From IMG/VR virus record IMGVR_UViG_3300050016_000128, positions 1-48,476 of that record: a DNA stretch of 48,476 nucleotides; one strand, written 5' to 3'. The notes beneath the pieces were generated by a model. It searched no databases. It saw only the letters and a program-made list of their open reading frames with translations, and was not told the origin of the DNA. A program made the translations under genes and the position numbers. The stretch is from a virus. Position 1 is the stretch's first letter. Each line of letters starts with the position of its first letter. This document shows positions 16,392 through 46,622 of the stretch, in pieces.

Positions 16392-16567
16392 TCCCCATTC
16401 TCCAACACATCCGTCGCCCGTTCGATAGCCTCAAGAAGATCCTCGGGGATTTGGATCAACCCATCGTGGGATTCCATCTCGCATCCATCCGGTCCTTGGT
16501 CGAAGAACTCTAGTAGATCCCGTAGAACCAATTCGAGTTCGATTACTCGATCTTCTGCTGTTTTCAT
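16388..16567 (-). CDS. Small acidic protein (59 aa)
   Basis: Starts at an ATG overlapping the polymerase stop (ATGA) and ends overlapping the next start. It is acidic and helical, with an N-terminal amphipathic helix (RVIELELVLRDLLEFF) and a C-terminal one (IPEDLLEAIERATDVLEN). No family is recognised. Its coupling to the polymerase gene suggests co-expression with it. Confidence 0.6.
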   Translation of the reverse strand: MKTAEDRVIELELVLRDLLEFFDQGPDGCEMESHDGLIQIPEDLLEAIERATDVLENGE

Positions 16568-19212
16568 ATATGTAACACCTTACTATCCCCCCAACTTTCT
16601 GTAGAGTACTTTGACTCCACGCGGAATGAAAACCCATCCAGCTCCTGCCACTTCATAGTCATGATCGCCCGCGATCGCTGTGCCTGCTCCAGGTGGGTTT
16701 CATCCGGCCCGATGCATACGATATCATCGTGTACCTGGAGGGCCATCCGCCAATCAGGGCAGAAGTCCGCCACTACTGCAAGTTGCAGCGCCATGATCTC
16801 GGTCCCGAATCTCGATGGGTAGTGCCCAATCATCATGCGAAGCACCATATCCGCAAGGGTAGAGGCTGGTAAGAACGCTAAAGCCTTTGTAGCGAAATCG
16901 CGGCCTTGGAACTGGCGACGACGACCGAAGGGGTTCTCCAGGTACGACTGCTTCTGCGCCGTGTTTATCGTCTCCTGTTGCCATGCTGCGGTGCGGGCGT
17001 TTTCCTTTTTCCATATCTGCATCATCTCACGAATGTCACTGATAGAGAAATTAAATCCTTCAGCGGCAAGATAGTCTTGTGTCTTGCGCTCTCCAAGACC
17101 ATAGTTTCGTCCGTGATTGATAACCTTACCGGGTTTTCGTAAAGGATCGTCTGGCCCGACATGTTGGTTAAAAAACCTCGATGCCATATATGAATGTTCA
17201 TCGAAGCCGGGGGTATTAAGTCGTTCCCATCTCGGCCAATCTTTTGCGAGCCACGCCGTAAGCATGTTCTCGCCTTGCACGATGTCATGTGAAAGAATAC
17301 CATACCCCTCCTTGTCGGGAATGAAGATCTTTCGGATAGCCTTGGGCTGATTCTGGAGGTTCAGGTTCGCCGGGTATTGCCCTGAGCAGCTAAGACGACC
17401 TTCAGACGTTCCAGTAACTGCAAGGCGGAATTTAACCCACTCGATGTTTTGAAGAGCTTCTTTTGCAAACGAATTTTTCTGTGTAGATAGTTTCTTAAGT
17501 ACATCAACAATCGTAAATTCGGTATGCTCTCGTCCCCAAATACGTCTAGCTCGCTTATCGCCGCTAGAATTTCCTGTCTTCGCATGTGACACTTCTTTAA
17601 GGTCAAGAGATTTAGCATATGCGATTACCTGAGCCGTGGAGTTCCACGGGACGATACGTTTCGTACCAGCAACTTTGATACGCTTGAAGGTAGAAAGCTT
17701 CTCACATATGATTGGCAATCCGCATATGTTGCAGGATTGTGTTCCGGGAGTAGTAAATACAATCTCATTACCATCATGGCGGCCCACCGCGCGGCTTCCT
17801 CGACACTTACGTGTTTTAGGCTTGTATGTATTCTCCGGTGCCACAATGGTTTTCGTGATCGGTTTGTCATACGGTTTCAATCCTTCCGGAAGGCGTAACT
17901 CAGTTTCCGCAAGCTCTCTTTGGAGTACCTCACGGATCGCAACGACTCGGGTGGAATCAATCCGAAGACCTGTTCGGTTGATGTCCCGGCAGATGTAGGC
18001 GGCAGGGACGGAGACGTTTCGGTAGACGGATTCGAGCCGGTAGTCTCGGAGGGTTCGAAAGATAGGAGCTTCAGCTTGTAACGTCCCGTCGGTGTCTCTA
18101 GCGTTATACAATCTCCAGGCTTCATCAGCCGAGTGACATCCCCCATAACCTCCGTACTCTCGGGGTATTGCACCGTCCGGTGAATCCCAGGTTTTCCACT
18201 GCGCTCCAGTAGGTAAGATGTTACCATCCTCGTCCTCACTTTCCTCCCCGCTACCTTTCCAAAATACCTTTCCTGTAAATACTGATCCCACGAAGCCAAG
18301 TCCATGACGCATATCGGGTTGGATGAGATGCTGTGCCAACATTGTGTCGTGGAGTTCAGCAGTAACGTTCCATCCGAGTTGATTGAAGTAGTAGGTATCC
18401 GCATCGACGATGTTGTGTCCGATCAGGACTTCGGCAGCTTCGAAGATCCTCTTTAGTTCCGGGATGAACTCACCCGTAAATGGTACGCAAATGCTATGAT
18501 ACCAGCGAGAACTAAGTCCACACATAGTAATCGTTCCGTGGTTGTCCCACTCAAAATCAAACGAAAAAGTACGATCAGTAAAATTACGTACAGTAGTAAT
18601 GCTGGGATAAAGGTCATATTCCTCCGGGGGTAGTTCTAACGTCCGACGCAGATCATGCACCGCGATGGAGAACATCGTCGGCATCCGCATGAGGAACGCG
18701 GGGTGAAGGGTCCCCACCACCCGAGGCCCTTCGTTCGGTCGCCCTTTAAGTGGTAGAGGCGAACCCCGCCATTGAAGTATCCCTGACCTATTGGTCACGG
18801 CCTTCAGTGCTTCATTTCCTAACGCGACAATTCGGGACGGCTGGAGTTGGGTCAACGCGGGTTCGAGATGGTGTAAGCGGCAATATTCCACCGCACTCCG
18901 GGCAGTGGATCTCTCTGTCCAAACCCACTTTGCGGAACCCGGATAAATGTTCTCTGGCGGTTGACAACCAATCGTATTGATTATGTTCAGACCCGATCTC
19001 GGTATACGTGCAGCTCGTAGCATTGAGTTTAACCACGATCCCGCACCGCCGACAAACGGCTTCCCACTCGTGGCCTCGTCGCTTCCCGCTGCTTCCCCTA
19101 TCCATAACTCCCTCCCAGTACCACGTTCCAACGGCACGTACCCATGTGTAACATGATTGATTGGGCACCCCGAGCAGAAGTCCGGTTTTGGTGCGTACTT
19201 GATTTCCTTCAT
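16564..19212 (-). CDS. Uracil-DNA glycosylase / DNA polymerase A fusion with 3'-5' exonuclease
   Basis: A protein of 882 residues. Residues ~10-190 are a family 4-type uracil-DNA glycosylase: C-x-x-C near residue 13, GEAAGSDEATSGKPFVGGAG, later single Cys residues in NTIGCQP and VEYCRL that could complete a 4Fe-4S site, and GTLHPAFLMR. Next comes a DEDD exonuclease: FSFDFEWD, IGHNIVDAD and LYNARDTD. The polymerase palm has motif A SHDIVQGEN (D-x-x-Q-x-E), motif B LRKPGKVINHGRNYGLG and motif C LQVHDDIV. All catalytic acids are present. Motif B has His where E. coli Pol I has Phe762. A Cys pair (TQSCNICGLPIIC) interrupts the thumb region. The start overlaps the upstream stop (ATGA). This is the phage replicase. 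Confidence 0.92.
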   Translation of the reverse strand: MKEIKYAPKPDFCSGCPINHVTHGYVPLERGTGRELWIGEAAGSDEATSGKPFVGGAGSWLNSMLRAARIPRSGLNIINTIGCQPPENIYPGSAKWVWTERSTARSAVEYCRLHHLEPALTQLQPSRIVALGNEALKAVTNRSGILQWRGSPLPLKGRPNEGPRVVGTLHPAFLMRMPTMFSIAVHDLRRTLELPPEEYDLYPSITTVRNFTDRTFSFDFEWDNHGTITMCGLSSRWYHSICVPFTGEFIPELKRIFEAAEVLIGHNIVDADTYYFNQLGWNVTAELHDTMLAQHLIQPDMRHGLGFVGSVFTGKVFWKGSGEESEDEDGNILPTGAQWKTWDSPDGAIPREYGGYGGCHSADEAWRLYNARDTDGTLQAEAPIFRTLRDYRLESVYRNVSVPAAYICRDINRTGLRIDSTRVVAIREVLQRELAETELRLPEGLKPYDKPITKTIVAPENTYKPKTRKCRGSRAVGRHDGNEIVFTTPGTQSCNICGLPIICEKLSTFKRIKVAGTKRIVPWNSTAQVIAYAKSLDLKEVSHAKTGNSSGDKRARRIWGREHTEFTIVDVLKKLSTQKNSFAKEALQNIEWVKFRLAVTGTSEGRLSCSGQYPANLNLQNQPKAIRKIFIPDKEGYGILSHDIVQGENMLTAWLAKDWPRWERLNTPGFDEHSYMASRFFNQHVGPDDPLRKPGKVINHGRNYGLGERKTQDYLAAEGFNFSISDIREMMQIWKKENARTAAWQQETINTAQKQSYLENPFGRRRQFQGRDFATKALAFLPASTLADMVLRMMIGHYPSRFGTEIMALQLAVVADFCPDWRMALQVHDDIVCIGPDETHLEQAQRSRAIMTMKWQELDGFSFRVESKYSTESWGDSKVLHI

Positions 19213-19364
19213 TCGAGACACCAATCGTAGTTGTCTATGAAAATATACCGTTTCGCGTATGACTTTGGTTTCCGCCCATACATTCGTTCACGATAAGTAT
19301 TCCCGTGACTACATACGGGGCATGTAGTAATATGAAACCGTATCCAATACTTACGTTTCTTCAT
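19209..19364 (-). CDS. Small zinc-binding protein (51 aa)
   Basis: Starts at an ATG in a TAATG overlap with the upstream gene and ends in an ATGA overlap with the polymerase. It carries TTCPVCSHGNTYRERMYGRK and a C-terminal YDWCLE, the pattern of very common small phage zinc-finger proteins with C-P-x-C and a late Cys. It may bind nucleic acid or accompany the polymerase. The role of the family is unknown. Confidence 0.7.
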   Translation of the reverse strand: MKKRKYWIRFHITTCPVCSHGNTYRERMYGRKPKSYAKRYIFIDNYDWCLE

Positions 19365-25658: not shown

Positions 25659-25826
25659 TTAGGCCTCATCAAAGAGACCGACAAACTTCCCAGTTACGCA
25701 ATCGCATGATTCGCCTACCCAAATCGCGCAGTCTGAGGCGTGGGGCCAAGGTTCTACATCCTTGGTATCCCGTAGAGACCCTGTAGGACGCACAGCGCGC
25801 CCCGTGGTGCAATCGGCGGCGCTCAT
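25659..25826 (-). CDS. Small Cys-containing phage protein (55 aa)
   Basis: Starts at an ATG overlapping the upstream stop (ATGA). The C-terminal half, PWPHASDCAIWVGESCDCVT, matches the pattern H-A-x-x-C-A-x-x-x-x-x-x-C-D-C of a widespread family of tiny phage proteins thought to bind a metal. It ends just before the A+T-rich regulatory region. The family's function is unknown. Confidence 0.65.
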   Translation of the reverse strand: MSAADCTTGRAVRPTGSLRDTKDVEPWPHASDCAIWVGESCDCVTGKFVGLFDEA

Positions 25827-26284
25827 TGGACTACTTCCACCCGACCGGGCATTTCGATCACCCTGCCGCTCGCGGGGGCGTCCCCTACCCAGGCTTTACA
25901 CCCTCCGACGTGGATTCGTCCCGGCTTATGCGACCACAACACCTCCGCATACTCGCGGTCTATCGGTTCGGTTCCACGGGTGGTAGCATTCCCACACTTC
26001 TCCTCTTTGGCAAAGTTGTAGATTTTACATCCGATACCACATTGGGTCGCTGCGGCTTTGATGTCCTGCGGAGCGAGCCGGGTGTTGTTGATTATAATAC
26101 CTTTACATAACTTACACACGACGATTTGGTCGGAGTAGTTGTTGTTGGAGTACCTCCGATAAAAACACCAATCCGATTCGATGTCGCGGAGGATTGCGTG
26201 GAACAGGAGGATTTTACGAGGATCTCCGTGTAGTTTTACCTGGATGTGGAAGCGGCCTGGTGCGGATTGGTATTGTGTGCTCAT
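25823..26284 (-). CDS. Hypothetical protein with Cys pairs (153 aa)
   Basis: No family is recognised. The N-terminal third looks like an alpha/beta domain (RFHIQVKLHGDPRKILLFHA). The middle has VVCKLCKGIIINN and CGIGCKIYNF, likely a zinc site, and a Cys in VGGCKAW. The start overlaps the upstream stop (ATGA). It may belong to the same leftward transcript as the amidotransferase. Confidence 0.6.
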   Translation of the reverse strand: MSTQYQSAPGRFHIQVKLHGDPRKILLFHAILRDIESDWCFYRRYSNNNYSDQIVVCKLCKGIIINNTRLAPQDIKAAATQCGIGCKIYNFAKEEKCGNATTRGTEPIDREYAEVLWSHKPGRIHVGGCKAWVGDAPASGRVIEMPGRVEVVQ

Positions 26285-26601
26285 GACTTTCCTTTCTGTA
26301 TCTCTTGCATAATCTGTTCCGGGGTACGGGTCTCGGGAGCCTCGTCCGGTTTCATCTTGATCGTGTTCCGAGCGGTGGATTCGATGGCGTCGGTGTGGAC
26401 TTTGGCGACTTTACTGTACACATCCGTAATCTCCGACAGCTCACGAGTGTTGATTCCTTGAAGATCTTCGTCCATCTGTTTCAATCTCTTCGCCGCCAGC
26501 TTCATAAGCATTGCACCGATTTTACTATTTTCCTTCGCACCTGCCTGTGCGACGATCGCTTGTCCTCGGAGGATGGTGGTAATTACCTCTTGGATCTTCA
26601 T
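26281..26601 (-). CDS. Hypothetical helical protein (106 aa)
   Basis: Almost entirely helical and charged (KIGAMLMKLAAKRLKQMDED, DVYSKVAKVHTDAIESTARN), probably coiled, with a Pro-containing tail. No family recognised. It is coupled to the amidotransferase gene by an ATGA overlap, so it may be part of the amide cassette's transcript. Confidence 0.6.
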   Translation of the reverse strand: MKIQEVITTILRGQAIVAQAGAKENSKIGAMLMKLAAKRLKQMDEDLQGINTRELSEITDVYSKVAKVHTDAIESTARNTIKMKPDEAPETRTPEQIMQEIQKGKS

Positions 26602-27548
26602 ACCCCCACCCCTACGAGTTCTTTGATAAACTTATCCATATGCTTCTGACAGACTAACGCACGACGCCGGTTCGGTTCGACCTTCTCTGTACAACTCGAC
26701 ACCCCACAGATGTTGTTTCCACGATCCGTAGCGTTCAATTGATCCAAAGTTGGGTATACTGGTCGATAAGAGCTTTGAGAACCTTGGGATGATCTATGAT
26801 GGCCTGTCTGCCAAAAGGAAGTAAAATCCGCCGAGCCACCTCCATAGCTGCGATTACCAAAAGGCATCTTTCCAATCTTCCAAAGACAATCCTGAGTCGG
26901 ATCTGTCTCATCCAGACGAATATCATACTCCATGTCTTCGTCTGTGGTGTAGAAAGTTCGTACAGCCCCACCTGCCATCGACGCCGCTTGCTCTACGATA
27001 CCTCGTGTGGAGCAGAATACGATCTCTCCGGATTCAAGAGCAGCAATGTTAAGATTATCTCCGTTGAACCGTGCAAGGTGTAATCGGGGTTCGGGATTCT
27101 CTGCGGTCATTTCGTACCATGCTAGGTTACCGTAGCCTTGTAGCTCCTGGGTGGGAGAGTTCCCTACGATTGCTTCGAAGATATGCGGGGAGTCGCATTC
27201 GTAGGTACGGTTGTATTTTTTGTTTAACGCATCATAGTTGAGGATAACACCATTGTGGATGCCGATGATTACTTTGGTATCCTTCGTTGTGATAAACGGA
27301 TGCTGGTTCTTGATGGAAACCGCTCCGGTGGATGCTGCACGGGTGTGGAAGATCCCCGTGGACCAGATAGACCACTTGGGTACGGATTCCGCCCAGGTTT
27401 TATGAATCGGCCCGAGATGTTTGATGATCTCTGCTCCATTCGTAGCTCCCCAGGAGTCGCGTCCACGACCCTCCATTTCCAGTGCTAGGAACGGAGCCAT
27501 ACGGCGGGTAGTGTCGGTGATTCGGGAAAATCCGAAGATGCCACACAT
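26598..27548 (-). CDS. Class II glutamine amidotransferase
   Basis: A protein of 316 residues beginning MCGIFGFSRI: Cys2 would be the N-terminal nucleophile after Met removal. Other GATase II marks are the RGRDSWGATN segment, IFHTRAASTGAVSIKNQHPF (oxyanion/glutamine site) and GIHNGVILNYDAL (H-N-G). It would release ammonia from glutamine. There is no attached synthetase domain, so ammonia must go to a partner. The last ~35 residues carry a likely zinc site (ICGVSSCTEK ... LVCQKHMDK). It lies four bases after an Amidoligase_2 gene and closes the amide-forming cassette, so it may feed that chemistry. A GAGAGGAAG ribosome site precedes it. Confidence 0.88.
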   Translation of the reverse strand: MCGIFGFSRITDTTRRMAPFLALEMEGRGRDSWGATNGAEIIKHLGPIHKTWAESVPKWSIWSTGIFHTRAASTGAVSIKNQHPFITTKDTKVIIGIHNGVILNYDALNKKYNRTYECDSPHIFEAIVGNSPTQELQGYGNLAWYEMTAENPEPRLHLARFNGDNLNIAALESGEIVFCSTRGIVEQAASMAGGAVRTFYTTDEDMEYDIRLDETDPTQDCLWKIGKMPFGNRSYGGGSADFTSFWQTGHHRSSQGSQSSYRPVYPTLDQLNATDRGNNICGVSSCTEKVEPNRRRALVCQKHMDKFIKELVGVGV

Positions 27549-27552
27549 GTTG

Positions 27553-28839
27553 TTATTCTTCCTCTCTTGTTGGGTTTGGTGTTATTACTGGGTTCCAGCG
27601 TAGTGTTGTGTTGGTTATCGTTCCTGTCCAACCACGTCGAGGCCTTGCTGTTATTGTATCGCCTGTTCTACCTTCCATAGGTCCCGCAGCCATTATCGGT
27701 TTCACCTGAGTACAGATCTTCTTCTGCACCCAGTCGGTAATCCATCGCGGCATGAACTCATCCGTGAACTTCAACAACGAAAACGATTCTCGCATCGTAC
27801 GCCGTTCCTGTATCCGCGTACAGGCTTGTACGAACCATCCGCACCACAACGGCCATGCGGTAAGATCTTCCAGATCCGTGGAAGCTTCTTTCATACGGAA
27901 CTCCAACGTCCCTCGGTACATCCATGCGTGGAGGTTCAACCCCACGTACCTCGACCATTCGTATCGGCCATTCTTACGGGTCTGCAACCACGTTGCTGCA
28001 TCCCGCGGACGCTGCCCTTCCATCGGTCCATAGAGCATGTTGATAATACCTTGCTTTAACTCGGAGGTATTTTTTGCATTATTCAACCACTCGATTGTAT
28101 CCCGAAGCGGAATCAACGCCTTGCGCTGCCGGGGATATTGCTGATCATACCGGGTACACCGTTCACACTTTACATGCTTCTTTGTCAACATCTGACAGTA
28201 GTGCGTAACCTCCGGAACATCCCGGCGATGTGGTAGAATAAGATGATCGTATATCTCGCCTTCCAACATCTCGTAGATACGAAGTATCTTTCGTAGGTCC
28301 CAATATGATAGATCCGAACTCCCTACGTGTACGTGATACGCACAGGTTTGGTTGACGGTCGCATCGGTACGATACAACTGCTCAGCCAACTCTGCCATCG
28401 CCCGTAGGAACTCATCTCCACGAAGTGGATGGATTACCATCTCCTGTCCGGAAGGTTGCACCGACCAATCGCGGACAGGTTCGTACTCCAGGTGATTAAA
28501 CGTTCCTTCGTTGCGTAATTTTCCCCAATCAGACAGCTCCAGTTCCAATCCGAGTGTACGTTGGAGAGTATTTATGTGATACGTATCCGGAACTCGTGGT
28601 AGTCGTAACGGGGTATACTGTGCCATGTGACGGCAGGCACAGCAGGACTTACAGGTACAACAGTGGGCGCAGTACCGGGATGGACGTTTTGGGACCTTCT
28701 TTTGACATTTATGACAGTGGGTGCACATGCATCCACAGCCGGAACATCGACGGCAGACGAGGCAATATGCTACACGTGGTTTTTCATGGTAGGCTCGTTG
28801 TTGTTTCGCACACCACGCACAGAAGATAGTAGGTTTCAT
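27553..28839 (-). CDS. Amidoligase_2-family COOH-NH2 ligase with Cys-rich N-terminus
   Basis: A protein of 428 residues starting in a TAATG overlap. The core fits the glutamine-synthetase/GCS-like Amidoligase_2 family: LGLELELSDWGKL (E-x-E, metal/ATP), DWSVQPSGQEMVIHPLRG, TCAYHVHVGSSDLSYWD and YRGTLEFRMKEASTD. Such enzymes join a carboxylate to an amine using ATP. Residues 1-75 contain about seventeen Cys in short C-x-C/C-x-x-C groups (CSGCGCMCTHCHKCQK), suggesting several zinc ions or an RNA/protein-binding module. It pairs with the following GATase II gene, the classic neighbourhood for this family. The substrate is unknown. Confidence 0.82.
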   Translation of the reverse strand: MKPTIFCAWCAKQQRAYHEKPRVAYCLVCRRCSGCGCMCTHCHKCQKKVPKRPSRYCAHCCTCKSCCACRHMAQYTPLRLPRVPDTYHINTLQRTLGLELELSDWGKLRNEGTFNHLEYEPVRDWSVQPSGQEMVIHPLRGDEFLRAMAELAEQLYRTDATVNQTCAYHVHVGSSDLSYWDLRKILRIYEMLEGEIYDHLILPHRRDVPEVTHYCQMLTKKHVKCERCTRYDQQYPRQRKALIPLRDTIEWLNNAKNTSELKQGIINMLYGPMEGQRPRDAATWLQTRKNGRYEWSRYVGLNLHAWMYRGTLEFRMKEASTDLEDLTAWPLWCGWFVQACTRIQERRTMRESFSLLKFTDEFMPRWITDWVQKKICTQVKPIMAAGPMEGRTGDTITARPRRGWTGTITNTTLRWNPVITPNPTREEE

Positions 28840-29522
28840 TATGCTTCCTTCCCCGTCCCGAGGTACCGTTGTAACCACGACGTGGATACTCGACGGTCCT
28901 GGGCTATAACCGCAAGCCATGGGGATAGTTGAGACAGAAATGGAACCATATCCTTCAAAGCTTCCTGGAGACGAGTAAACCGAGAATGGCAAATTGCATG
29001 CCTAACATTGTTGTACAACGCAGTGTTTTGTGTCATCGTGTAGGAAGTTATGTTCGCCCCAGATATTGCATTGAGAAATTGGTTAAACAGCGCCGGGTTA
29101 GGTTTTTGCCCAACCCGCCGTTCCGGATGTCGCCGATCGAGGGTCACAGCGAGGTTTTGAAGGGTTGTCCGAGGGAGCTGTTTAACCATCGAGGAGATAA
29201 ACTTCTTAGAGAATCCGAAGATGATCCCGTCATCCACGTAGAGTATAGCTATCTCTCGATTTGTATCGTAAAGGTGAGACATTACTGTTCCCTCTTGTGC
29301 AGATGTGGGATAATTTGACTGAACCGTAATCCACAAACATAGTTCAAGTTGTTTGAGGTACTCTCGAATAAGTTCAGAATTTAAAGCAGGCACCCCATCA
29401 TCCTCGGGATGATACAACTTTGTAAGCATGTAATCCGTCCATCCGAGGTAGTTAAGCACCGACGAGGCTTCGGCTTGGGAGACGTATAGGAATGTTACAG
29501 TTTTATCTACCAAGGATATCAT
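28839..29522 (-). CDS. Hypothetical protein in the amide cassette (227 aa)
   Basis: The ATG at 29522 sits in an ATGA overlap with the upstream gene, and the stop overlaps the amidoligase start, so it belongs to that operon. It is an alpha/beta protein with no recognised motif (KTVTFLYVSQAEASSVLNYL; REIAILYVDDGIIFGFSKKF). It could be a dedicated partner of the amidoligase or its substrate carrier. This is inference from coupling only. Confidence 0.65.
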   Translation of the reverse strand: MISLVDKTVTFLYVSQAEASSVLNYLGWTDYMLTKLYHPEDDGVPALNSELIREYLKQLELCLWITVQSNYPTSAQEGTVMSHLYDTNREIAILYVDDGIIFGFSKKFISSMVKQLPRTTLQNLAVTLDRRHPERRVGQKPNPALFNQFLNAISGANITSYTMTQNTALYNNVRHAICHSRFTRLQEALKDMVPFLSQLSPWLAVIAQDRRVSTSWLQRYLGTGKEA

Positions 29523-29875
29523 AACGCACCCCAACTGGTACTGTTAGAAAAATACCGCACTTGTTCTCCTATTCGAAGGGCAACTACACGAACAAGAGAT
29601 ACATCACAGTAAGAACATGCAACTACTCGACAACGAAGATTGTTGTTTTTCGTGGGGTATTTTTCTTTAAACCCTTCAGAGATCCGTACGGGATAAGTTA
29701 CCAATACTAACGTCCTCCGGCCACATTCCGGACATTGGTGTCTGTTTGACTCCACGCAAGCGGCAGCGATACGACCGAGGCTACGGGATACGGGGATGTA
29801 AGGACGAGGACGTACTATTGAAGCATTATCAGTTACTGCCACCTCGTCGTTAATAATTGTAATTGTAATTGTCAT
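29519..29875 (-). CDS. Zinc-ribbon protein (118 aa)
   Basis: The start is an ATG 3' of the 554-base gap. The N-terminus repeats Thr-Ile (MTITITII). HQCPECGRRTLVLVTYPV and LRCRVVACSYCDVSLVRV give two Cys pairs, a zinc ribbon. It is the first gene of the amidoligase/GATase sub-block and may regulate or assist it. Family not recognised. Confidence 0.65.
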   Translation of the reverse strand: MTITITIINDEVAVTDNASIVRPRPYIPVSRSLGRIAAACVESNRHQCPECGRRTLVLVTYPVRISEGFKEKYPTKNNNLRCRVVACSYCDVSLVRVVALRIGEQVRYFSNSTSWGAL

Positions 29876-30429
29876 ATCGTATTACCTATCCATCCTTCGT
29901 TGCTGAGGTTTCGTGTGGACGGAAAATACTTTCATCGCCGCAGCGACTACTTGATTTGGTTCCACTGATACACCTCTACCTCGTACGGTACTTTAGCTGA
30001 ACCGATGGCTCTCCAGGTCTCCCCGAGATAAGCCGGTCGCCCGACTATCTATCCACTCGGATCACAGTTGGCTGGTACTACTACCAAGCAGTTCTACCCC
30101 ATTCGTGAAAAGGTATTTCAACGAAGGATGGAAGATCGAAGGGACCTAGACGAGTTGAACGCCCATATCCAATTTGGTAATTGGATTCACCGGTATTGGT
30201 CCCATAAAATTGTAGGGCGAGGTCACCTCCCCGCCCCGTACCCTCGCTTACGCCCAGTGCCAAGTTTCTATGACCACACCAGGGCTATCTCGTCCAACGG
30301 CACCACTGTGGTTACTTTACAACGTAGCGGGTATTCGCCACTATCATTGCGTTCACCTACCCTATCGTGTGTACGTCGCGTCGGTTGCCCACGACGATCA
30401 TCCGCAGAGGTGATACCTGTTGGCCGATA
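29876..30429 (-). other. 554-base stretch without a convincing gene
   Basis: The only long gap in the minus block. Leftward frames are short and lack ribosome sites; a rightward open frame (30068-30439) starts at TTG against the direction of the operon and is not convincing. Visible structure: a 13-base inverted repeat CCATCCTTCGTTG (29890-29902) / CAACGAAGGATGG (30119-30131); an 8-bp, 4-base-loop hairpin at 30167-30186; and a fold at 30141-30203. It may hold a leader RNA or regulatory RNA for the downstream zinc-ribbon/amidoligase genes. Confidence 0.5.
30141..30203 (-). ncRNA. Possible structured RNA (three-way-junction-like)
   Basis: Read leftwards: GGGACC pairs with GGTCCC as a closing stem; inside are ATCCAATT/AATTGGAT with an ACCA loop and GGGCG/CGTCT (with two G-U pairs) with a 7-base loop TTCAACT that resembles a tRNA T-loop. 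A D-arm and a normal anticodon arm are missing, so this is not a standard tRNA. It could be chance. Confidence 0.3.
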
Positions 30430-30555
30430 CTATTCGTAAGGAGGTTGTCCATCGGCCTTGTGGCATTTGAGGATACGTGAGCCTTCCTGACGTGGTAGCA
30501 CGTTCAGGGCATCCACCGAGGGAGTAGTCGTTTCGTGTTTGTTAAATATTGACAT
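30430..30555 (-). CDS. 41-residue peptide inside the amide cassette, candidate precursor
   Basis: An ATG at 30555, overlapping the end of the GNAT gene by 14 bases, opens 41 codons ending in TAG at 30430. An AGGA lies about ten bases upstream. The sequence has a polar N-terminal half (MSIFNKHETTTPSVDALNVL) and a C-terminal PRQEGSRILKCHKADGQPPY with a single Cys and final Glu. Its position among ATP-grasp and amidoligase genes makes it a candidate substrate or tag peptide. It is also compatible with an ordinary small phage protein. Not recognised. Confidence 0.5.
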   Translation of the reverse strand: MSIFNKHETTTPSVDALNVLPRQEGSRILKCHKADGQPPYE

Positions 30556-31081
30556 TTGGATAACGTCCTACCCGATCGTATTCCTCCGATCGCAGCCGTA
30601 ACTCCCACATGGTAATAATCTCATTCGTGTTTGGGTTACGAAAGGTCCCCGTGGGTTTCCACCCGGAACGTTCGAGTAGTTTTATCCCTGCTACCTGAGA
30701 GGAAATCGTTGCAGCGATAAGAAGTCCTCCGAAGGTGTATTTTTCTGATAGGCTTCGCATCGCTTCACATACGATAGGGAATAAAAATCCTCCGAAGCCG
30801 TGGCGGGTATTTTCGTGCGCTACGGACGTATACCTCGGCGTTATAAATACCTCATGGACTATACTGATCCCACAACATCCAAGATACGTCCCATAAGGGA
30901 CTACAAAGGATACTGGGGCACCTTTGTAGATGAATTTAAACGTCAAATGAACACAGCTAGCTGCAGTATATATCGGATCTGGTATTCGATCCACCACTAC
31001 CCGCTCCATCCCCAACTTTTTCATCGCGGAGATGTTTTTCTTTGAGGATAATATTTTTGTTATTGTTTCTGTAATCGTCAT
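30542..31081 (-). CDS. GNAT-like acyltransferase
   Basis: A protein of 179 residues. A long central beta-sheet leads to IVHEVFITPRYTSVAHENTR, HGFGGFLFPIVCEAMRSLSE (the acetyl-CoA pyrophosphate loop region in the form R-H-G-F-G-G) and IAATISSQVAGIKLLERSGW (C-terminal 'A-x-K-L-x-x-x-x-G-W' helix). It would acylate an amine, and GNAT-fold enzymes also act as aminoacyl-transfer peptide ligases. Sitting three bases after the COOH-NH2 ligase, it probably modifies or extends that product. Confidence 0.72.
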   Translation of the reverse strand: MTITETITKILSSKKNISAMKKLGMERVVVDRIPDPIYTAASCVHLTFKFIYKGAPVSFVVPYGTYLGCCGISIVHEVFITPRYTSVAHENTRHGFGGFLFPIVCEAMRSLSEKYTFGGLLIAATISSQVAGIKLLERSGWKPTGTFRNPNTNEIITMWELRLRSEEYDRVGRYPNVNI

Positions 31082-31084
31082 AAC

Positions 31085-32401
31085 TTATACCTTTACACTT
31101 CCATCTCCATACGCTTTCAATCGGCACACTCCGCTCCAGATATGCCGCTCTGAGGAGTTATGATTATGCCCGAGCCACGTATCATCCAACCGCCAGTTCT
31201 TTACAAGATCCGTAGGATCGGCTACAGCATAACCAATCCCTTCGTAAATCGTAGCAAGGGTGGGGGTAACAGCTAATCCGCCGCGCCACCGTCTCGCAAT
31301 AATCTTCCGCAACATCGGCTCGTTACGTTTCAATATCTTCTGTGCTACACCCACATCCAGCTTGTTGATCGCGTGGCGTACCTCGTCGTCCTCGGCGTCC
31401 CAGAGGAACTCGAACCCATGCAGCCCAAGCCATAACGCCTGCCGCGCAAGCTCCCAACAGAGATTCCACGTAGCCGGATGCGCTCCTAGGAGAACCTCGG
31501 GTACGCGGTATTCGAGAGTGTTACCGTAACGGTACTCTCCAGCTCGTCCGTACAACGTACGCCGTTCCGGGTAACGATACTCCTGCCCAAGGGATACCAT
31601 CGCAACCCCAACGATACGATCCAACATACGGATCGCGGGGGGGATGAGGTGGTCGGGGACGGGGGTGTAGGCCGTCATCGAAGTCTTCAACCCAAAATGC
31701 ATATGCCATCCCGCAGAGCGGAAGGGCAGGCTAACCGGATCTTCCACCCGTAGTGGTTCCTCTCCGTAGACATTCAACGATGGGGAACACCCGAGTTGAA
31801 AATGTTCCGGATCGTATTGCGTCCGCATGGCTTCGGGGATGGGTACCACGGATGCTATGGAAAGTGTCGCCTTCGGATCGCGGGCTTTCGCTGCGAGCCA
31901 TACCTGCCGCATACCTTCGCGCACCCGATCGATGTGGAGACTGAGGCATTGTGGGTTTACTGTAGATACCTTCGTCGTCCACTCAGCCTGAAAACCATCG
32001 TAAAAATGTGTGCCGGTACCGTGATCCACCGCGGCTTCCTTGCGGGGTAGGAATGTAAACGCCGGGATAACCTCACCGTGTTCGTCGAGGGCAAATATCT
32101 CCGGATCGGAACCGATGGAGGTATAGGTCTTGGAGGCACCAAGAATTTCATAGTTGTGTGTCGAATCCAACACCACTTTAGTCCACATCTTTGTTCCACG
32201 ACGGGTGGTTACCGATGCGATGGATGGTTTTGTTAGTAACTGTATGCTGCCATCCAGTTTTACGATCTGTACCATAGGCTCGGGGAGATTTTTAAGATTA
32301 AGCTTTTGCACCAGCCCGAGGGTACCGTTGGTGGTTACCACGACATGACGGCCAGGTTCAAGAGCGGCGAGTTCGGGAACGGGTTTTGGTGTGGGTGTCA
32401 T
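31085..32401 (-). CDS. phiEco32-type COOH-NH2 ligase (amidoligase type 2)
   Basis: A protein of 438 residues. The ATG at 32401 is chosen because GGAGGAAG lies nine bases upstream; an in-frame ATG at 32449 lacks a site. The core is the phage 'COOH-NH2 ligase type 2' family first noted in phiEco32: TSIGSDPEIFALDEHGEVIP (S-D-P-E), FYDGFQAEW (D-G-x-x-x-E), FQLGCSPSLNVYGEEP, RSAGWHMHFGL and LEYRVPEVLLG. It belongs to the glutamine-synthetase-like ligase fold and should form an amide bond with ATP. The first ~110 residues form a separate beta-rich domain. Its partners here are two ATP-grasp ligases and a dipeptidase. Confidence 0.82.
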   Translation of the reverse strand: MTPTPKPVPELAALEPGRHVVVTTNGTLGLVQKLNLKNLPEPMVQIVKLDGSIQLLTKPSIASVTTRRGTKMWTKVVLDSTHNYEILGASKTYTSIGSDPEIFALDEHGEVIPAFTFLPRKEAAVDHGTGTHFYDGFQAEWTTKVSTVNPQCLSLHIDRVREGMRQVWLAAKARDPKATLSIASVVPIPEAMRTQYDPEHFQLGCSPSLNVYGEEPLRVEDPVSLPFRSAGWHMHFGLKTSMTAYTPVPDHLIPPAIRMLDRIVGVAMVSLGQEYRYPERRTLYGRAGEYRYGNTLEYRVPEVLLGAHPATWNLCWELARQALWLGLHGFEFLWDAEDDEVRHAINKLDVGVAQKILKRNEPMLRKIIARRWRGGLAVTPTLATIYEGIGYAVADPTDLVKNWRLDDTWLGHNHNSSERHIWSGVCRLKAYGDGSVKV

Positions 32402-32509
32402 CGAACGTACTTCCTCCATAAACACCACAACCCCGTCAAGCGATGCCATGTTACGGCACCACCCACGGGGTGTGATAGTTTTGACGGTAGCGCCGTCTTC
32501 GCTGTGGTC

Positions 32510-32875
32510 CTATTGGACCTCTTCGATCGTCCGTACCGCAATCGGTACCGGAAGGTTCGATGCAAACGTGTTCACATTACCATCCGCGGTCAGCCAGAAC
32601 TCTCCAGCCACTGCGGGACGCATATCGCCGGTTTCGACGAATACCACCCGACGGATCTTACGATCTTCGATGATCAAACGCGGCCCGCCGAACTTATGAT
32701 CCGTGGTGGTATCATGCGTTTTGATGCGTCCATCCAAGGTGAGGAACTTCACCGGTTGCGCGGGCAGCATATCAAACGATGTGAACTCCTGCCGACCTGT
32801 CAACAGGACCTTCAAATCATCCAACAGCTTCCCATACACCTGCTCGATTGTTACTTCTTTCGCTGTGTTAAGCAT
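32510..32875 (-). CDS. Hypothetical protein in the amide cassette (121 aa)
   Basis: The ATG at 32875 follows AAAGGAGT at eight bases, so it is preferred over the longer frame starting at 32923. The protein is beta-rich after an N-terminal helix (EVTIEQVYGKLLDDLKVLLT; PVKFLTLDGRIKTHDTTT; RRVVFVETGDMRPAVAGEFW). No family is recognised. A 108-base gap containing the next gene's ribosome site follows. It is probably a specific accessory of the pathway. Confidence 0.65.
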   Translation of the reverse strand: MLNTAKEVTIEQVYGKLLDDLKVLLTGRQEFTSFDMLPAQPVKFLTLDGRIKTHDTTTDHKFGGPRLIIEDRKIRRVVFVETGDMRPAVAGEFWLTADGNVNTFASNLPVPIAVRTIEEVQ

Positions 32876-32919
32876 TAGTTGTACTCCTTTCTTTAGTATT
32901 TTACTCCGTATACGAACTT

Positions 32920-33759
32920 TCATAAACCGAGAACTCGTTGGGCGTTACTGCCAGCGATGGCCCGAATGTCTTCGAATGAATATCCTCGTGAGACGAGAAT
33001 ATTGATAACGATGTCTCGCCAACCATCAGCCTCCACAATCGTATCCGCACCATCGATATCCGAACCGATGGCTACGTGACGGACACCGATGAGCTGCGCT
33101 ACGTGATCGATATGGTCCGCGACGCTACCCAACGCGGTCCCGACGAACTTCTTTACGAACGGGATTCCGATTATACCATCGCTTTTACCAATAGAACGTA
33201 TTAACCTATCAGATAGATTCCGTGGATGATCGACTAACGCACGACACCCAGAATGTGAAGCAATAACTGGACTGTTACGGATTCCTTCACCACATTCCAA
33301 GATTCCGTAGGCTGTATAGTCACTGACGTGGGAGATATCTGGAAGGATTCCAAGTCGATGTAATTGATCTACAAACTGTATTCCTTTAACTGTTAACCCT
33401 TCCCGTGGTATATCCGTAGCGGAATCCCCGAGATCGTTGTTACGGTTGTGGGTGATGGTGACATACTTCACCCCAGCATCAGCTAGCCGCTCTAAATCCA
33501 TCCCCTCCACAAGCCGACCATTCTCCACACCGAACTGATGTACACCTTCCGCATGCCCCCAGGTAATCTGGTCCCGTACGACTTGCTGCCGTAGTTCCAG
33601 GGTTATCGTATCCTGTATGGCATCTGATAGATACACAGCAAACACGGGGTAATCGATGTGTTTATACGTATGGTTATTAATCCCATACTTCCACCACTTC
33701 CACGGTGCATCCACGTGGAGATCTACCGTAACAATGCGGGATGGATCAGATCTTTCCAT
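32920..33759 (-). CDS. M19-family dipeptidase (renal dipeptidase-like)
   Basis: A protein of 279 residues of the metallo-dependent hydrolase barrel, peptidase family M19: TVDLHVDAPWKWW (H-x-D zinc ligands), YVTITHNRNNDLGDSA, LPDISHVSD, VIASHSGCRALVDHPRNLSD (His ligand and substrate loop) and VAIGSDIDGAD. These enzymes cleave dipeptides, including those with a C-terminal D-residue, using two zinc ions. There is no signal peptide, so it acts inside the cell. GGAGG lies six bases upstream. It follows the ATP-grasp genes with a 37-base overlap, so peptide making and peptide cleaving are coupled. It may edit or recycle dipeptides in the pathway. M19 enzymes are unusual in phages. Confidence 0.88.
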   Translation of the reverse strand: MERSDPSRIVTVDLHVDAPWKWWKYGINNHTYKHIDYPVFAVYLSDAIQDTITLELRQQVVRDQITWGHAEGVHQFGVENGRLVEGMDLERLADAGVKYVTITHNRNNDLGDSATDIPREGLTVKGIQFVDQLHRLGILPDISHVSDYTAYGILECGEGIRNSPVIASHSGCRALVDHPRNLSDRLIRSIGKSDGIIGIPFVKKFVGTALGSVADHIDHVAQLIGVRHVAIGSDIDGADTIVEADGWRDIVINILVSRGYSFEDIRAIAGSNAQRVLGL

Positions 33760-34562
33760 GTTGGCCTCCGTGCGGTAACTGTTGCAAATGTCATTGTTGT
33801 TCCTGCGTTATTCCTCAACCAATCAAACACCTTCGCAAGTCGTTTCACCGTGTATTGCTTCGATACCCCCGGTGCGGTATTACCTTCGAAGATGTAGACT
33901 CCCTCCGCGGTACATCCCAAATCCACCGCGACGAAATCCAGCCCGAGCTTCGTGGCACCTTGCATAGCGGCTACACACACCTTGATCGGCCATTCCTCGC
34001 GTACCACATGTTCCGCTTTACCACCCTGAGCGAAGTTCCACATTAATAGTTCTCCACCCTCATCTGCTGTAGGGGCGAACTTCTGGGTTACCGCGACCAC
34101 GCGGTTCTGTAGCACGAACACTCGATACTCGTTAGTCTTATCGATAATCTCCGATGCGTACCATCCTGCACCCGTACAACCTATCGCTCTGAGTGCCTCA
34201 GCACGATTTCGACATACGAAGAAATTGTTACCACCAAAGTGATGCTTTGGACGGATGATACACGGGAAAAATAAATCCACCGTTCGTGTAACAGTTCGTG
34301 GTGCTAAATCTTCGAGAATCAATCTCGTGACAGCTTTATTATCCACCTGTACTACCGCTGCACGAGTATTCACCTCTTGCAGGCCGGTCGTTATCCGTTT
34401 CGAGTTCCACCGCACCACGATGGTGTCTCCAGGTGGCAAGAACTCCGTATCCTGAACAATTTCGATAACTCCTGGACTGTTTCCAATCTTTCCAATCTCA
34501 CTTGCTAAGTGCCGTACGATTCCCCGACAGTTCGGAGAGTGATAGAGAAATGTTAGTCTCAT
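33723..34562 (-). CDS. ATP-grasp ligase, second of a pair (279 aa)
   Basis: The ATG at 34562 overlaps the stop of the first ATP-grasp gene (ATGA). ATP-grasp features: FPCIIRPKHHFGGNNFFVCR (Lys and Gly-rich loop), GWYASEIIDKTNEYRVFVLQ (E-x-x-x-x-x-x-E-Y-R) and LDFVAVDLGCTAEGVYIFEG followed by NTAPGV, the metal-binding E-x-N. It should activate a carboxylate as acyl phosphate and join it to an amine or thiol. It resembles the neighbouring ATP-grasp protein around the E-Y-R and N-T-A-P-G-V motifs, so the two probably arose by duplication and may add different building blocks. Confidence 0.85.
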   Translation of the reverse strand: MRLTFLYHSPNCRGIVRHLASEIGKIGNSPGVIEIVQDTEFLPPGDTIVVRWNSKRITTGLQEVNTRAAVVQVDNKAVTRLILEDLAPRTVTRTVDLFFPCIIRPKHHFGGNNFFVCRNRAEALRAIGCTGAGWYASEIIDKTNEYRVFVLQNRVVAVTQKFAPTADEGGELLMWNFAQGGKAEHVVREEWPIKVCVAAMQGATKLGLDFVAVDLGCTAEGVYIFEGNTAPGVSKQYTVKRLAKVFDWLRNNAGTTMTFATVTARRPTWKDLIHPALLR

Positions 34563-35287
34563 GACGTACGCCGTACCCATGCCACCATTCGATCAGCCAG
34601 TATCCCGAGTGTAGGCTCCGCATGGCTAGCCAGTACACCGGGAGCCGTGTTAACCTCTAGGACATACTCCTGCTCGTCCATCCCTACGAGAATATCCACG
34701 GCTCCAAAATCCAACCCTATTGCGCGTAGTGCCATAGCTCCAAGGTACCGAATAGAATTGATATTCCCCACTGGTTGAAACTCAAATCCGTTACGGAAGT
34801 TTCGCCCAATGTACTTGAAGTCTGCGGGACGCCGCATAACCTTCTCATACGTACCAATACATTCATCTTGGAATACCCACACCCGATACTCCGTCCGTAC
34901 GGGGACGTACTCCGAAAACCAATCCCACCCTGCCGCGATACGCCATGGTAGCTCTTCCGGTTGGAACACCGGAACAATATCTGTACCACCGAAGCCGTGA
35001 GTCTTTCGAGCCAGCAGTGGAAAGGATACTGTACGATTAGTCCAATTATCCTTCGAAAACCACGGTACCGTTTGCACTCCATGTGCCTGCATCGCATGCA
35101 TCCGGGTTATCTTATCCGTAATGCACTGTTGGTTTAATATATTCTCGGCTCGACCTATCAACCCACCGTAACAGATACCATGAGTATAAGAACGCCCGAT
35201 GGTAACTCCCCGGTCTGTTAAGTATTGTTGCAGCAACGCCCCGGTTTCCTTGGACGACGCTGCGATGGATAATTGTACTGTTGGCAT
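34559..35287 (-). CDS. ATP-grasp ligase, first of a pair (242 aa)
   Basis: Starts in a TAATG overlap. ATP-grasp features: FPLLARKTHGFGGTDIVPVF, FSEYVPVRTEYRVWVFQDEC and LDFGAVDILVGMDEQEYVLE followed by VNTAPGV (E-x-N metal site). The N-terminal ~70 residues form the pre-ATP-grasp part (SYTHGICYGG). Related proteins (RimK-like) ligate amino acids onto a carboxylate. It is the first enzyme of the 35.3-26.6 kb cassette, followed by a similar second ligase and an M19 dipeptidase. The substrate is unknown. Confidence 0.85.
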   Translation of the reverse strand: MPTVQLSIAASSKETGALLQQYLTDRGVTIGRSYTHGICYGGLIGRAENILNQQCITDKITRMHAMQAHGVQTVPWFSKDNWTNRTVSFPLLARKTHGFGGTDIVPVFQPEELPWRIAAGWDWFSEYVPVRTEYRVWVFQDECIGTYEKVMRRPADFKYIGRNFRNGFEFQPVGNINSIRYLGAMALRAIGLDFGAVDILVGMDEQEYVLEVNTAPGVLASHAEPTLGILADRMVAWVRRTS

Positions 35288-42544: not shown

Positions 42545-42711
42545 TGCCCAAGTTTCTTGAAGATCAATTGAAAGCCAAGTACGGTGGGGACTCCGCAGTC
42601 CCCTACAAGATCATGAACTCCCTCGGGGTGATGAAAGGTTCCAAGGAAACCCCGAAGGGCAAGTCATGGGATAAGAAACATGCCGCGAAAGTAGCAAAAG
42701 GCGGCAAGTGA
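42544..42711 (+). CDS. Small conserved phage protein (55 aa)
   Basis: Starts in a TAATG overlap. MPKFLEDQLKAKYGGDSAVP continues with YKIMNSLGVMKGSKETPKG, a pattern (L-x-x-x-Y-G-x-x-x-x-x-x-Y-x-x-M-N-x-x-G-x-M-x-G-x-x-E-T-x-K-G) seen in many small phage proteins of unknown role. The stop overlaps the next GTG (GTGA). Confidence 0.65.
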   Translation: MPKFLEDQLKAKYGGDSAVPYKIMNSLGVMKGSKETPKGKSWDKKHAAKVAKGGK

Positions 42712-43472
42712 CCGACTGCTCCCAGGTAGATACCCGCTACGGCAAGATGTGGGTGTTCAATGAAGACAATGGATGTTCGTTTATGCTCAAGGAGTATGGG
42801 GAATACTCTCCGTTGGAGCTTGCCTTCATCAAAGCAGCTCTACCTCCGGACGGGACGTTCATAGATCTCGGCGCTCATATTGGTGCTATGACGATTCCGA
42901 TTGCTCGGGTATGTAAGAAAGTCTACGCGATAGAACCACAGGCGGAAGTGCGAGAAGTCCTACGGGATAACCTGGATCTCGCTGGAGTTACAAACGTTGA
43001 GGTGATCCCGTATGCGGTAGGTAGTGCCCAGGAACAACGGTTCTACAATCTTGAACCATCCCGGCGTGGATCAACAGAGATGGGGCCGGATGGGCAGGTG
43101 GAAGTCCAAGTTGTACCGCTAGACGACTTGGACCTGGCCCCAAACTTCATCAAGATCGACGTGGAAGGTATGGAGATTGATGTGCTTCTCGGGGCACAGA
43201 AGACGCTGAAGAGGTATCGACCCACATTGCTGCTGGAACGCCAACCAGCGAATACAAAGACCCTGAGGCAGTGTTTGACTTTACTTGGATACACGATCTA
43301 CACCGTGGATCTTCCAATGTTTGTTCCGAACAACTATAACAAAAACCCGACGAATCACTTCATCCACAAAGGTCACATGATGCTTGGAGCGGTTCCATAT
43401 CCGGAGCTACCGATCTACGAGTTGATACTGGAAACGAAGGAAGACGCGACGAGGCAGTTGACATGGCGATAA
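42708..43472 (+). CDS. FkbM-family SAM-dependent methyltransferase
   Basis: A protein of 254 residues starting at GTG in a GTGA overlap. Motifs: FIDLGAHIGAMTIPIARVCK (SAM-binding motif I), KVYAIEPQAEVREVLRDNLD (motif II with acidic end), VTNVEVIPYAVG, and VVPLDDLD followed by NFIKIDVEGMEIDVLLGAQK, the FkbM hallmark. It would O-methylate a sugar or similar hydroxyl. It opens the sugar/surface module, so a glycan is a likely substrate. Confidence 0.85.
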   Translation: MTDCSQVDTRYGKMWVFNEDNGCSFMLKEYGEYSPLELAFIKAALPPDGTFIDLGAHIGAMTIPIARVCKKVYAIEPQAEVREVLRDNLDLAGVTNVEVIPYAVGSAQEQRFYNLEPSRRGSTEMGPDGQVEVQVVPLDDLDLAPNFIKIDVEGMEIDVLLGAQKTLKRYRPTLLLERQPANTKTLRQCLTLLGYTIYTVDLPMFVPNNYNKNPTNHFIHKGHMMLGAVPYPELPIYELILETKEDATRQLTWR

Positions 43473-43687
43473 GAAGGAAGGTAGTAATTCCCGTGGACAC
43501 GCTCCTTAATTTGATTAAAGATTATACACGAGAGCGCCATGATATCCCCGATGATGCGGTACCGGTCAGTCTTCAGATCAAGCCGAGTGAGAAGGGTATG
43601 TTTGGTTTGATGATTCAATCAGCACACTTCACAGACGACTCCCCCATCCGGGTGAACTTTGACATCAAGAAAGTGTTTACGGCGTGA
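43463..43687 (+). CDS. Hypothetical protein, paralogue of the next gene (74 aa)
   Basis: Overlaps the methyltransferase end by ten bases. IPVDTLLNLIKDYTRERHDI aligns with IDANSILKLITHYTQDLKYP of the following protein, so the pair arose by duplication. The rest is beta-like. Function unknown. Confidence 0.6.
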   Translation: MAIRRKVVIPVDTLLNLIKDYTRERHDIPDDAVPVSLQIKPSEKGMFGLMIQSAHFTDDSPIRVNFDIKKVFTA

Positions 43688-44007
43688 TGATCCAGAAGCG
43701 GATTGAGATCGACGCGAATAGTATCCTGAAGTTGATCACCCACTATACCCAGGACCTCAAGTACCCGATGCCCCTGGACGCCGAGCTGGTCGCAGCCGGA
43801 ATCTCCCCCGTCCTCCACCGCTGGATCATGCTGGAAGTCTCCTCCGAGGAATGGGATCGCGCCGGGGTACCTATTAATCCCGACACCCACGAACCTGAGA
43901 TGTACCACGTCCGCTACGAAGGCTGCTCCGTCGGCTCCTGGATGTCCCAGGGCGGCGAGGATCAGAGCAAAATGGAATGGAAAGAATCTGTTGAGGCACC
44001 AAAGTAA
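43687..44007 (+). CDS. Hypothetical protein, paralogue of the preceding gene (106 aa)
   Basis: ATG at 43687 overlaps the preceding stop by one base. It shares the N-terminal helix with its neighbour, then has IMLEVSSEEWDRAGVPINPD and GSWMSQGGEDQSKMEW. No family recognised. It is the last gene before the structured RNA at 44.03 kb. Confidence 0.6.
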   Translation: MIQKRIEIDANSILKLITHYTQDLKYPMPLDAELVAAGISPVLHRWIMLEVSSEEWDRAGVPINPDTHEPEMYHVRYEGCSVGSWMSQGGEDQSKMEWKESVEAPK

Positions 44008-44027
44008 CTACGATGTTTGATTGACCT

Positions 44028-44089
44028 TCCCGCCCTCAACCAGCATCCCCTGTTGGTATGAGCTTGTTGCCTCCCAAGCGAGGGCGGGA
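44028..44089 (+). ncRNA. Structured RNA, three-way junction upstream of the glycosyltransferase
   Basis: A 62-base fold: closing stem TCCCGCCCTC (44028-44037) with GAGGGCGGGA (44080-44089), ten perfect pairs; hairpin ACCAGC/GTTGGT (44039-44057, one G-U, 7-base loop); hairpin GCTTG/CAAGC (44062-44079, 8-base loop). It fills most of the 99-base gap before the glycosyltransferase ATG. There is no T-run, so it is not a typical terminator. It may be a cis-regulatory or protein-binding RNA. Not a recognised class. Confidence 0.55.
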
Positions 44090-44106
44090 GAACTTCTAAA
44101 ACTACC

Positions 44107-45907: not shown

Positions 45908-46115
45908 TGTCGGTACTTGGAATCCGTGTTATGCTTACGAGAAGGTACTATTCGGAGGTCGCGTCCACATCCTTTGGGGTAAGCGGAAAGTAAAAGGAAT
46001 GGAGACCGCCGGGGAGTATGTAGAGTGGCGACAACGGATTGTGGCACGTAATACAAACTCAGAACCTCGGCTACGGCAGTTGTCACGTTGGTTTCGGGGG
46101 TGGTTAGTTCGATGA
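45885..46115 (+). CDS. Basic hypothetical protein (76 aa)
   Basis: Overlaps the kinase end by 23 bases and the next start (ATGA). RIYSVGTWNPCYAYEKVLFG continues with GRVHILWGKRKVKG and a basic tail (LRQLSRWFRGWLVR). The overlaps and strand support translation. No family recognised. Confidence 0.5.
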   Translation: MRESRIYSVGTWNPCYAYEKVLFGGRVHILWGKRKVKGMETAGEYVEWRQRIVARNTNSEPRLRQLSRWFRGWLVR

Positions 46116-46516: not shown

Positions 46517-46622
46517 ATATTTGATAACAGCTCTGGTGAGTCTCGCCGTGGGGTTCTGCCTCGGTAGTTTTTACTACGGTGGTGGGTACCTGGTGGTGTC
46601 GTATCTCGCAAGTAAACTATGA
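46509..46622 (+). CDS. Tiny membrane protein (37 aa)
   Basis: Overlaps the cupin stop by eight bases and the terminase start (ATGA). One glycine-rich membrane helix (YLITALVSLAVGFCLGSFYY) followed by GGGYLVVSYLASKL. Probable inner-membrane peptide. Function unknown. Confidence 0.55.
   Translation: MIKYLITALVSLAVGFCLGSFYYGGGYLVVSYLASKL

Follow-up and report, generated by a model that had tools for sequence, protein, structure and literature searches.

A phage amidoligase gene run with two ATP-grasp ligases and an M19 dipeptidase: a candidate variant of the peptidoglycan modification cassette

Background

What does a phage make with a run of ligases, an amidotransferase and a dipeptidase, and is such a run unusual among phages? 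These questions are raised by a linear, possibly incomplete virus record of 48,476 bases in IMG/VR (IMGVR_UViG_3300050016_000128; hereafter the window, meaning the whole stretch of DNA that was analyzed). Between positions 35287 and 26598, its minus strand encodes two ATP-grasp ligases, an M19 dipeptidase, two amidoligases, a GNAT-fold protein and a class II glutamine amidotransferase (GATase). An earlier note, made from the sequence alone, had connected these genes with predicted peptide systems in which amidoligases act with ATP-grasp and GATase partners, and had considered so complete a set, with a dipeptidase, to be rare in phage genomes.

The original prediction of amidoligase peptide systems is credited by later papers to Iyer et al. 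(2009). Four of the families, namely a COOH-NH2 ligase, Amidoligase_2, a class II GATase and an ATP-grasp (the core set), are described as a named phage cassette (PMC3890496; PMC5498523; PMC11945000). It has been called the 'peptidoglycan modification cassette' or module, of phiEco32/RIO-1 type, and a role against superinfection has been suggested (PMC5498523; PMC11945000; PMC10580990). Host peptidoglycan is hypothesized in this literature to be the target of the cassette.

Results

The core set is not rare; it is a named, widespread phage cassette, and we found its families together in about 30 contigs from IMG/VR as well as in ten named phages. The named phages, identified by tblastn and annotation tables, are phiEco32, Pseudoalteromonas HP1 and RIO-1, Pseudomonas TC6, Vibrio Vp_R1, Alcaligenes QDWS535, Rhizobium I3_11, Stenotrophomonas StenR_269, an oyster-associated Zobellviridae phage and a crAss-like phage. 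The four families are not complete in every record, and StenR_269 has no COOH-NH2 ligase in the stretch scanned. The earlier family assignments and the link drawn to predicted peptide systems were right, while the supposed rarity applies to the dipeptidase, which occurs in one other cassette phage, and not to the core. With the cassettes of phiEco32, RIO-1, PA11 and LUZ24, the window has in common the COOH-NH2 ligase, Amidoligase_2, class II GATase and RimK/R2K ATP-grasp, on one strand and beside replication genes. It differs from them in adding two ATP-grasps of separate lineages and an M19 gene upstream, in having a GNAT gene after the COOH-NH2 ligase in place of a gene of ~200 amino acids (aa), and in lacking the gamma-glutamyl cyclotransferase (GGCT) or C26 hydrolase genes that are common, not universal, near such cassettes. 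The unusual feature of the window is the block ATP-grasp, ATP-grasp, M19 dipeptidase.

Read from 35287 to 26598, the run comprises ATP-grasp 2, ATP-grasp 1, the M19 dipeptidase, a 137-aa gene (32510-32923), the COOH-NH2 ligase, the GNAT, a 118-aa gene (29519-29875), a 231-aa gene (28839-29534), Amidoligase_2 and the class II GATase. All functional statements for these proteins are by homology. The seven enzyme genes are open reading frames on the minus strand, as the earlier note had described, and the three other genes were not in its list. The note's coupling of most genes through overlapping starts and stops holds over two stretches, one between 35628 and 32510 and one that begins with the 118-aa gene and reaches 25823, and breaks at a 666-bp gap (29876-30541) between the GNAT and 118-aa genes; the run is otherwise tightly packed. 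This gap contains no assigned gene and no Rfam match, and no structured RNA family was found in the window. Pfam and PHROG searches directly confirmed five of the seven enzyme families as named in the note, the COOH-NH2 ligase being placed by PHROG and a profile comparison, and the GNAT by its relatives and a structural model. Expected catalytic residues are kept in the M19 dipeptidase, the GATase and both ATP-grasps, and family-invariant residues are kept in both amidoligases.

The upstream block consists of three overlapping reading frames that precede the 137-aa gene. ATP-grasp 2 (34559..35287, minus strand; 242 aa), the first of the block, is of RimK/R2K type, matches PF08443 (1.5e-4) and PHROG 2599 (3e-19), and keeps the D/E/N metal positions. 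ATP-grasp 1 (33723..34580, minus strand; 285 aa), also of RimK/R2K type, matches PF08443 (9.4e-8) and PF14243 (2.9e-6) and keeps D220/E232/N234; in profile comparison, its nearest solved family is RimK. The window thus has the RimK/R2K ATP-grasp of the known cassettes in two copies instead of one. In a tree of 36 cassette ATP-grasps (clade supports given as pairs), ATP-grasp 1 groups with the ATP-grasps of loci L042 and L048 and with both ATP-grasps of L035 (98/93), ATP-grasp 2 falls in a separate 12-member clade (99/98), and the ATP-grasps of L002, L003, L016 and L023 form a third (100/98). Since the window's two copies lie in different clades, a tandem duplication is ruled out, which the earlier note had not seen, and neither copy is the branch's own ATP-grasp.

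The M19 dipeptidase (32920..33759, minus strand; 279 aa) matches PF01244 at 4.8e-53 and keeps all of the expected metal ligands and catalytic residues (H15, D17, E79, H104, H144, H169, R180 and D234). Its nearest solved structures are the 3id7 dipeptidase and GliJ. It shares the M19 family and metal ligands with GliJ and bacterial renal-dipeptidase-like enzymes (PDB 5lwz, 3id7), and differs from them in a shorter N-terminal third and in its location within a ligase cassette. No signal peptide is apparent (maximum hydropathy 0.85 over the first 60 aa). Bacterial M19 enzymes often accept L-D dipeptides, which would fit murein or gamma-glutamyl substrates.

When PF01244 was sought in the whole records of 41 cassette carriers (the window, 30 from IMG/VR and the ten named phages), it was present in two: the window and L035 (G018; IMGVR_UViG_3300031949_000008), a 110-kb phage with portal, virion and primase-helicase matches. 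In both, the M19 gene adjoins two tandem ATP-grasps; 32 other records show a single ATP-grasp (the ten named phages and 22 non-duplicate loci from IMG/VR in which an ATP-grasp could be seen, counted within the fetched stretches). With the window left out, M19 and two ATP-grasps occur together in 1 of 33 records, for a chance expectation of about 1 in 33, and the association is suggestive, not strong. G018 resembles the window in that M19 lies directly beside the two ATP-grasps in company with COOH-NH2 ligases and a GATase: one COOH-NH2 ligase lies upstream of the block, and the start of the contig holds the GATase and two further COOH-NH2-type ligases. The cassette is apparently cut at the contig end, which might be no more than the point where a circular map was opened. 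It differs in being another, larger phage with the block order M19, ATP-grasp, ATP-grasp, and no GNAT or PF12224-like relative of the window's proteins was found in it. The tree was too weak to establish that the two phage M19 genes share a direct common origin.

Two loci, L002 (G001; IMGVR_UViG_3300046517_001864) and L018 (G004), are true relatives of the window phage, with sequence matches that extend beyond the cassette. The order in L002 is 137-aa gene, COOH-NH2 ligase, GNAT, 231-aa gene, Amidoligase_2, GATase, 106-aa gene, 153-aa gene, ATP-grasp; the window has the same order from the 137-aa to the 153-aa gene and on to the exonuclease, Sak4 and polymerase genes. L018 has matching genes on the terminase side and again over the stretch that begins with the 137-aa gene and runs as far as Amidoligase_2, at which point its contig stops. 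Unlike the window, neither record has an M19 gene. In L002, a close relative, the single ATP-grasp follows the 153-aa gene, an arrangement that the earlier note had not seen; at that position the window has a 318-bp gap and no ATP-grasp. This pattern of clades and positions leads us to infer that the upstream block may have replaced an older, downstream ATP-grasp.

The COOH-NH2 ligase family that marks the known cassettes (PF14395 / PHROG 3815) is represented by a 454-aa protein of phiEco32 type with a glutamine-synthetase-like fold (31085..32449, minus strand). It matches PHROG 3815 (1e-19), carries the family's invariant residues, and aligns by profile with phiEco32 gp86 (probability 99.6, E=3e-24); against PF14395 it scores 19.8 bits, under the 25-bit cut-off. 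The best Foldseek matches of its AlphaFold model are glutamate-cysteine ligase and glutamine synthetases, at low TM-scores of 0.3-0.4. Amidoligase_2 (27553..28839, minus strand) matches PF12224 at 2.7e-19 (70.4 bits, cut-off 22) and phiEco32 gp84 with a probability of 95.8, and has the conserved E, D, H, R and Cys positions of its family. Its start is most likely the ATG at 28839, which gives 428 aa, instead of the TTG at 28992; the ATG has GGAAGG upstream and overlaps the stop of the 231-aa gene, and the start in the earlier gene list was most likely misplaced. The class II GATase (26598..27548, minus strand; 316 aa) matches PF13522 (9.9e-8) and keeps the N-terminal Cys in MCGIFG as well as HTR, HNG and D; C2, R70, N99, G100 and D119 are invariant in the family alignment, and the nearest solved structure is the GlmS glutaminase domain. 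Amidoligase_2 has a Cys-rich N-terminal region, with 24 Cys, many of them invariant across three phages, and the GATase has a C-terminal cluster (C281, C286, C300); these regions are probably metal-binding.

The GNAT-fold protein (30542..31081, minus strand; 179 aa) had no direct Pfam, PHROG or NCBIfam match. Six of the 12 members of its family match Acetyltransf_1 (PF00583; best 4e-6), its AlphaFold model has a pLDDT of 85, and the 50 listed Foldseek matches are GNAT-type acetyltransferases such as RimI, so that the acetyltransferase fold and motif A are assigned through the relatives and the model. The gene recurs in an IMG/VR branch of cassettes, directly after the COOH-NH2 ligase in the window, L002, L018, L032, L044 and L057, and hence belongs to the cassette in the window's branch. 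L057 (JAGWFS010000009.1), on a contig binned as Thaumarchaeota, has the order COOH-NH2 ligase, GNAT, Amidoligase_2, GATase, 153-aa gene, ATP-grasp. We did not treat the ~200-aa gene of other cassettes as essential for membership, because the window's branch (L002, L057) has the GNAT there instead. As a separate observation, the coenzyme A-binding motif of the GNAT relatives is preceded by a 'GCCGI'-like motif that includes a near-invariant Cys.

The loci compared here came largely from a scan with a COOH-NH2 ligase alignment, which yielded 32 IMG/VR loci, in most of which the other cassette genes were placed by iterated profiles. Single-protein IMG/VR scans with the COOH-NH2 ligase, ATP-grasp 1 or M19 found no relatives; alignments of both amidoligases did find loci, and the alignment scans with ATP-grasp 1 and with M19 turned up nothing beyond the one contig that was already known. 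Those M19 matches in the collection of phage records that were examined look like bacterial sequence or like unverified fragments lacking the cassette: a bacterial pqq operon is present in an Acinetobacter 'phage' record, and profiles detected no cassette genes in the Listeria and fecal records examined, which are unverified. Of 40 cassette records, 20 have a GGCT gene and 5 a C26 hydrolase gene, both being absent from the window and G018. In these cassettes, ligases are time and again accompanied by enzymes that cleave small peptides; the idea that M19 replaces GGCT and C26 was dropped (Fisher p=0.20). In two contigs of >430 kb, L025 (G008) and L030 (G013), COOH-NH2 ligase genes stand in tandem, two or three together, and these contigs also carry GGCT genes.

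The small genes of the run, all on the minus strand, are in part shared with relatives. The 137-aa gene is conserved in L002 and L018 (phmmer 9e-20 and 8e-23), where it immediately precedes the COOH-NH2 ligase, and the 231-aa gene lies directly upstream of Amidoligase_2 also in L002 (phmmer 3e-10 to L002:9202-9903). The Cys-containing 118-aa open reading frame has weak zinc-finger-like matches only. Downstream of the GATase, a 106-aa gene (26281..26601) is syntenic in L002 (phmmer 1e-4), and a 153-aa gene (25823..26284; phmmer 3e-35 to L002) lies between the GATase and the ATP-grasp in L002, L003, L016, L023 and L057.

Elsewhere in the window, the family A DNA polymerase (16564-19224, minus strand) has an N-terminal uracil-DNA glycosylase fusion (PF03167 2.2e-17; PF00476 4.9e-22). 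A set resembling sugar-nucleotide genes on the plus strand (42708-47955), partly conserved in L018 and L023, encodes an FkbM-type methyltransferase (42708-43469), a PfkB sugar kinase (45020-45904), a weak cupin/sugar-isomerase-like protein (46088-46513) and an HldE-domain-II-like nucleotidyltransferase (47413-47955). Such a set would be in keeping with a second function in modifying the host surface or glycans. A 276-aa open reading frame (46619-47446, plus strand) matches terminase large subunit families over an internal portion only (phrog_2 positions 243-414, 5.9e-8) and has no Pfam match; a full-length terminase was not found among the reading frames scanned.

Discussion

We give about an even chance to the following reading: the run represents a modified form of the known amidoligase (peptidoglycan modification) cassette of phages, and its enzymes, working in the cytoplasm, make or alter a short gamma-glutamyl-type peptide by a route that has one more ligation step and a step that cleaves dipeptides. 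Synthesis or amidation of such a peptide, possibly on a cell-wall precursor, would be the most likely function. In a crude hydropathy scan, neither a signal peptide nor a membrane segment was evident in any protein of the cassette, so that the chemistry is probably cytoplasmic, and the location of the cassette among polymerase, primase, Sak4-type recombinase and exonuclease genes of the same strand suggests that it is expressed with replication genes. Pathway and product, put forward as inference in the earlier note, are inferred here as well, together with the reaction order, substrate and host wall target. In the proposed scheme, the GATase would supply ammonia from glutamine, the two glutamine-synthetase-fold ligases would activate a carboxylate and then join it to an amine or to ammonia, the ATP-grasps would add amino acids, and the GNAT might acylate the product or transfer a residue to it, the peptide being either free or carried on a cell-wall precursor. 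The second ATP-grasp would provide the extra ligation step, and the M19 enzyme would cut dipeptides, thereby freeing monomers or trimming the product.

Several points weigh against this proposal. We found in the literature no experiment on the product or target of any such cassette. The near relatives of the window lack M19, GGCT and C26 alike, and the apparent exclusion of M19 with GGCT/C26 is not significant and could be chance. The gene of ~165-205 aa that lies between the two ligases of phiEco32-type cassettes has no homologue, by hhalign, among the GNAT, 231-aa and 137-aa proteins. Murein would be excluded as a general target should the L057 virus prove to be a true archaeal virus, and the Cys-rich regions of Amidoligase_2 and the GATase would also fit a macromolecular target.

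Such a macromolecule might be a protein of the host or of the phage (for example, a translation factor or a ribosomal protein), to which the RimK-like ATP-grasps and the GNAT would add amino acids or acyl groups, the GATase and glutamine-synthetase-fold ligases amidating or extending the tag. RimK, the nearest solved relative of the ATP-grasps, is the S6-glutamate ligase, the GNAT model is close to RimI-like enzymes, the Cys clusters could dock a macromolecule, and phage R2K ATP-grasps have been proposed to modify host proteins (PMC4431377; PMC7824862). We nevertheless regard protein tagging as quite unlikely: RimK-like ATP-grasps also make small molecules (LysX, CofF and MptN types), the partner enzymes (dipeptidase, GGCT and C26 hydrolase) act on small peptides, and the cassettes show no common protein substrate gene. 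Those same peptide-cutting enzymes, with GliJ as a close solved relative of the M19, would suit a metabolic role in which soluble, glutathione-like gamma-glutamyl peptides are made and recycled during infection so as to tap the glutamine and amino acids of the host, and M19 salvages dipeptides. The best match of the COOH-NH2 ligase model to glutamate-cysteine ligase and a glutaredoxin gene beside the RIO-1 cassette point the same way, and a deep-sea phage with like gene types has been proposed to aid host nitrogen use (PMC10945688). The growth effect in that study came from the whole phage, not the cassette, however, and a GATase with three or four ligases exceeds the needs of a salvage route; we consider this explanation unlikely.

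Decoration of a modified base of the phage DNA with amino acids by the ligases would agree with the position of the cassette among replication and recombination genes and with the uracil-DNA glycosylase domain fused to the polymerase. It is very improbable, as the proteins scanned (a subset of the open reading frames) gave no thymidylate synthase/hydroxymethylase, base kinase or glycosyltransferase match, and we know of no hypermodified DNA in phiEco32-type phages. A chance run of unrelated metabolic genes might be argued from the variation of the M19 and ATP-grasp block between phages, yet its likelihood is close to negligible given that the core set recurs in unrelated phages in similar order.

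Within the proposed variant of the amidoligase cassette, the M19 and twin ATP-grasp block may be a distinct mobile pathway module. Compared with phiEco32-type phages, its carriers would then make a gamma-glutamyl-type peptide that is longer or has a different cap, and the dipeptidase would edit the chain or supply it. We offer this idea tentatively and think it somewhat unlikely.

Conclusions

The idea that such gene sets are rare in phages is corrected by these results. The cassette is widespread in unrelated phages, yet we found no report of an identified product. The change from one ATP-grasp to two plus a dipeptidase narrows the possible chemistry and speaks for dipeptide intermediates, and a testable comparison can be drawn between phages that carry the block and phages that lack it.

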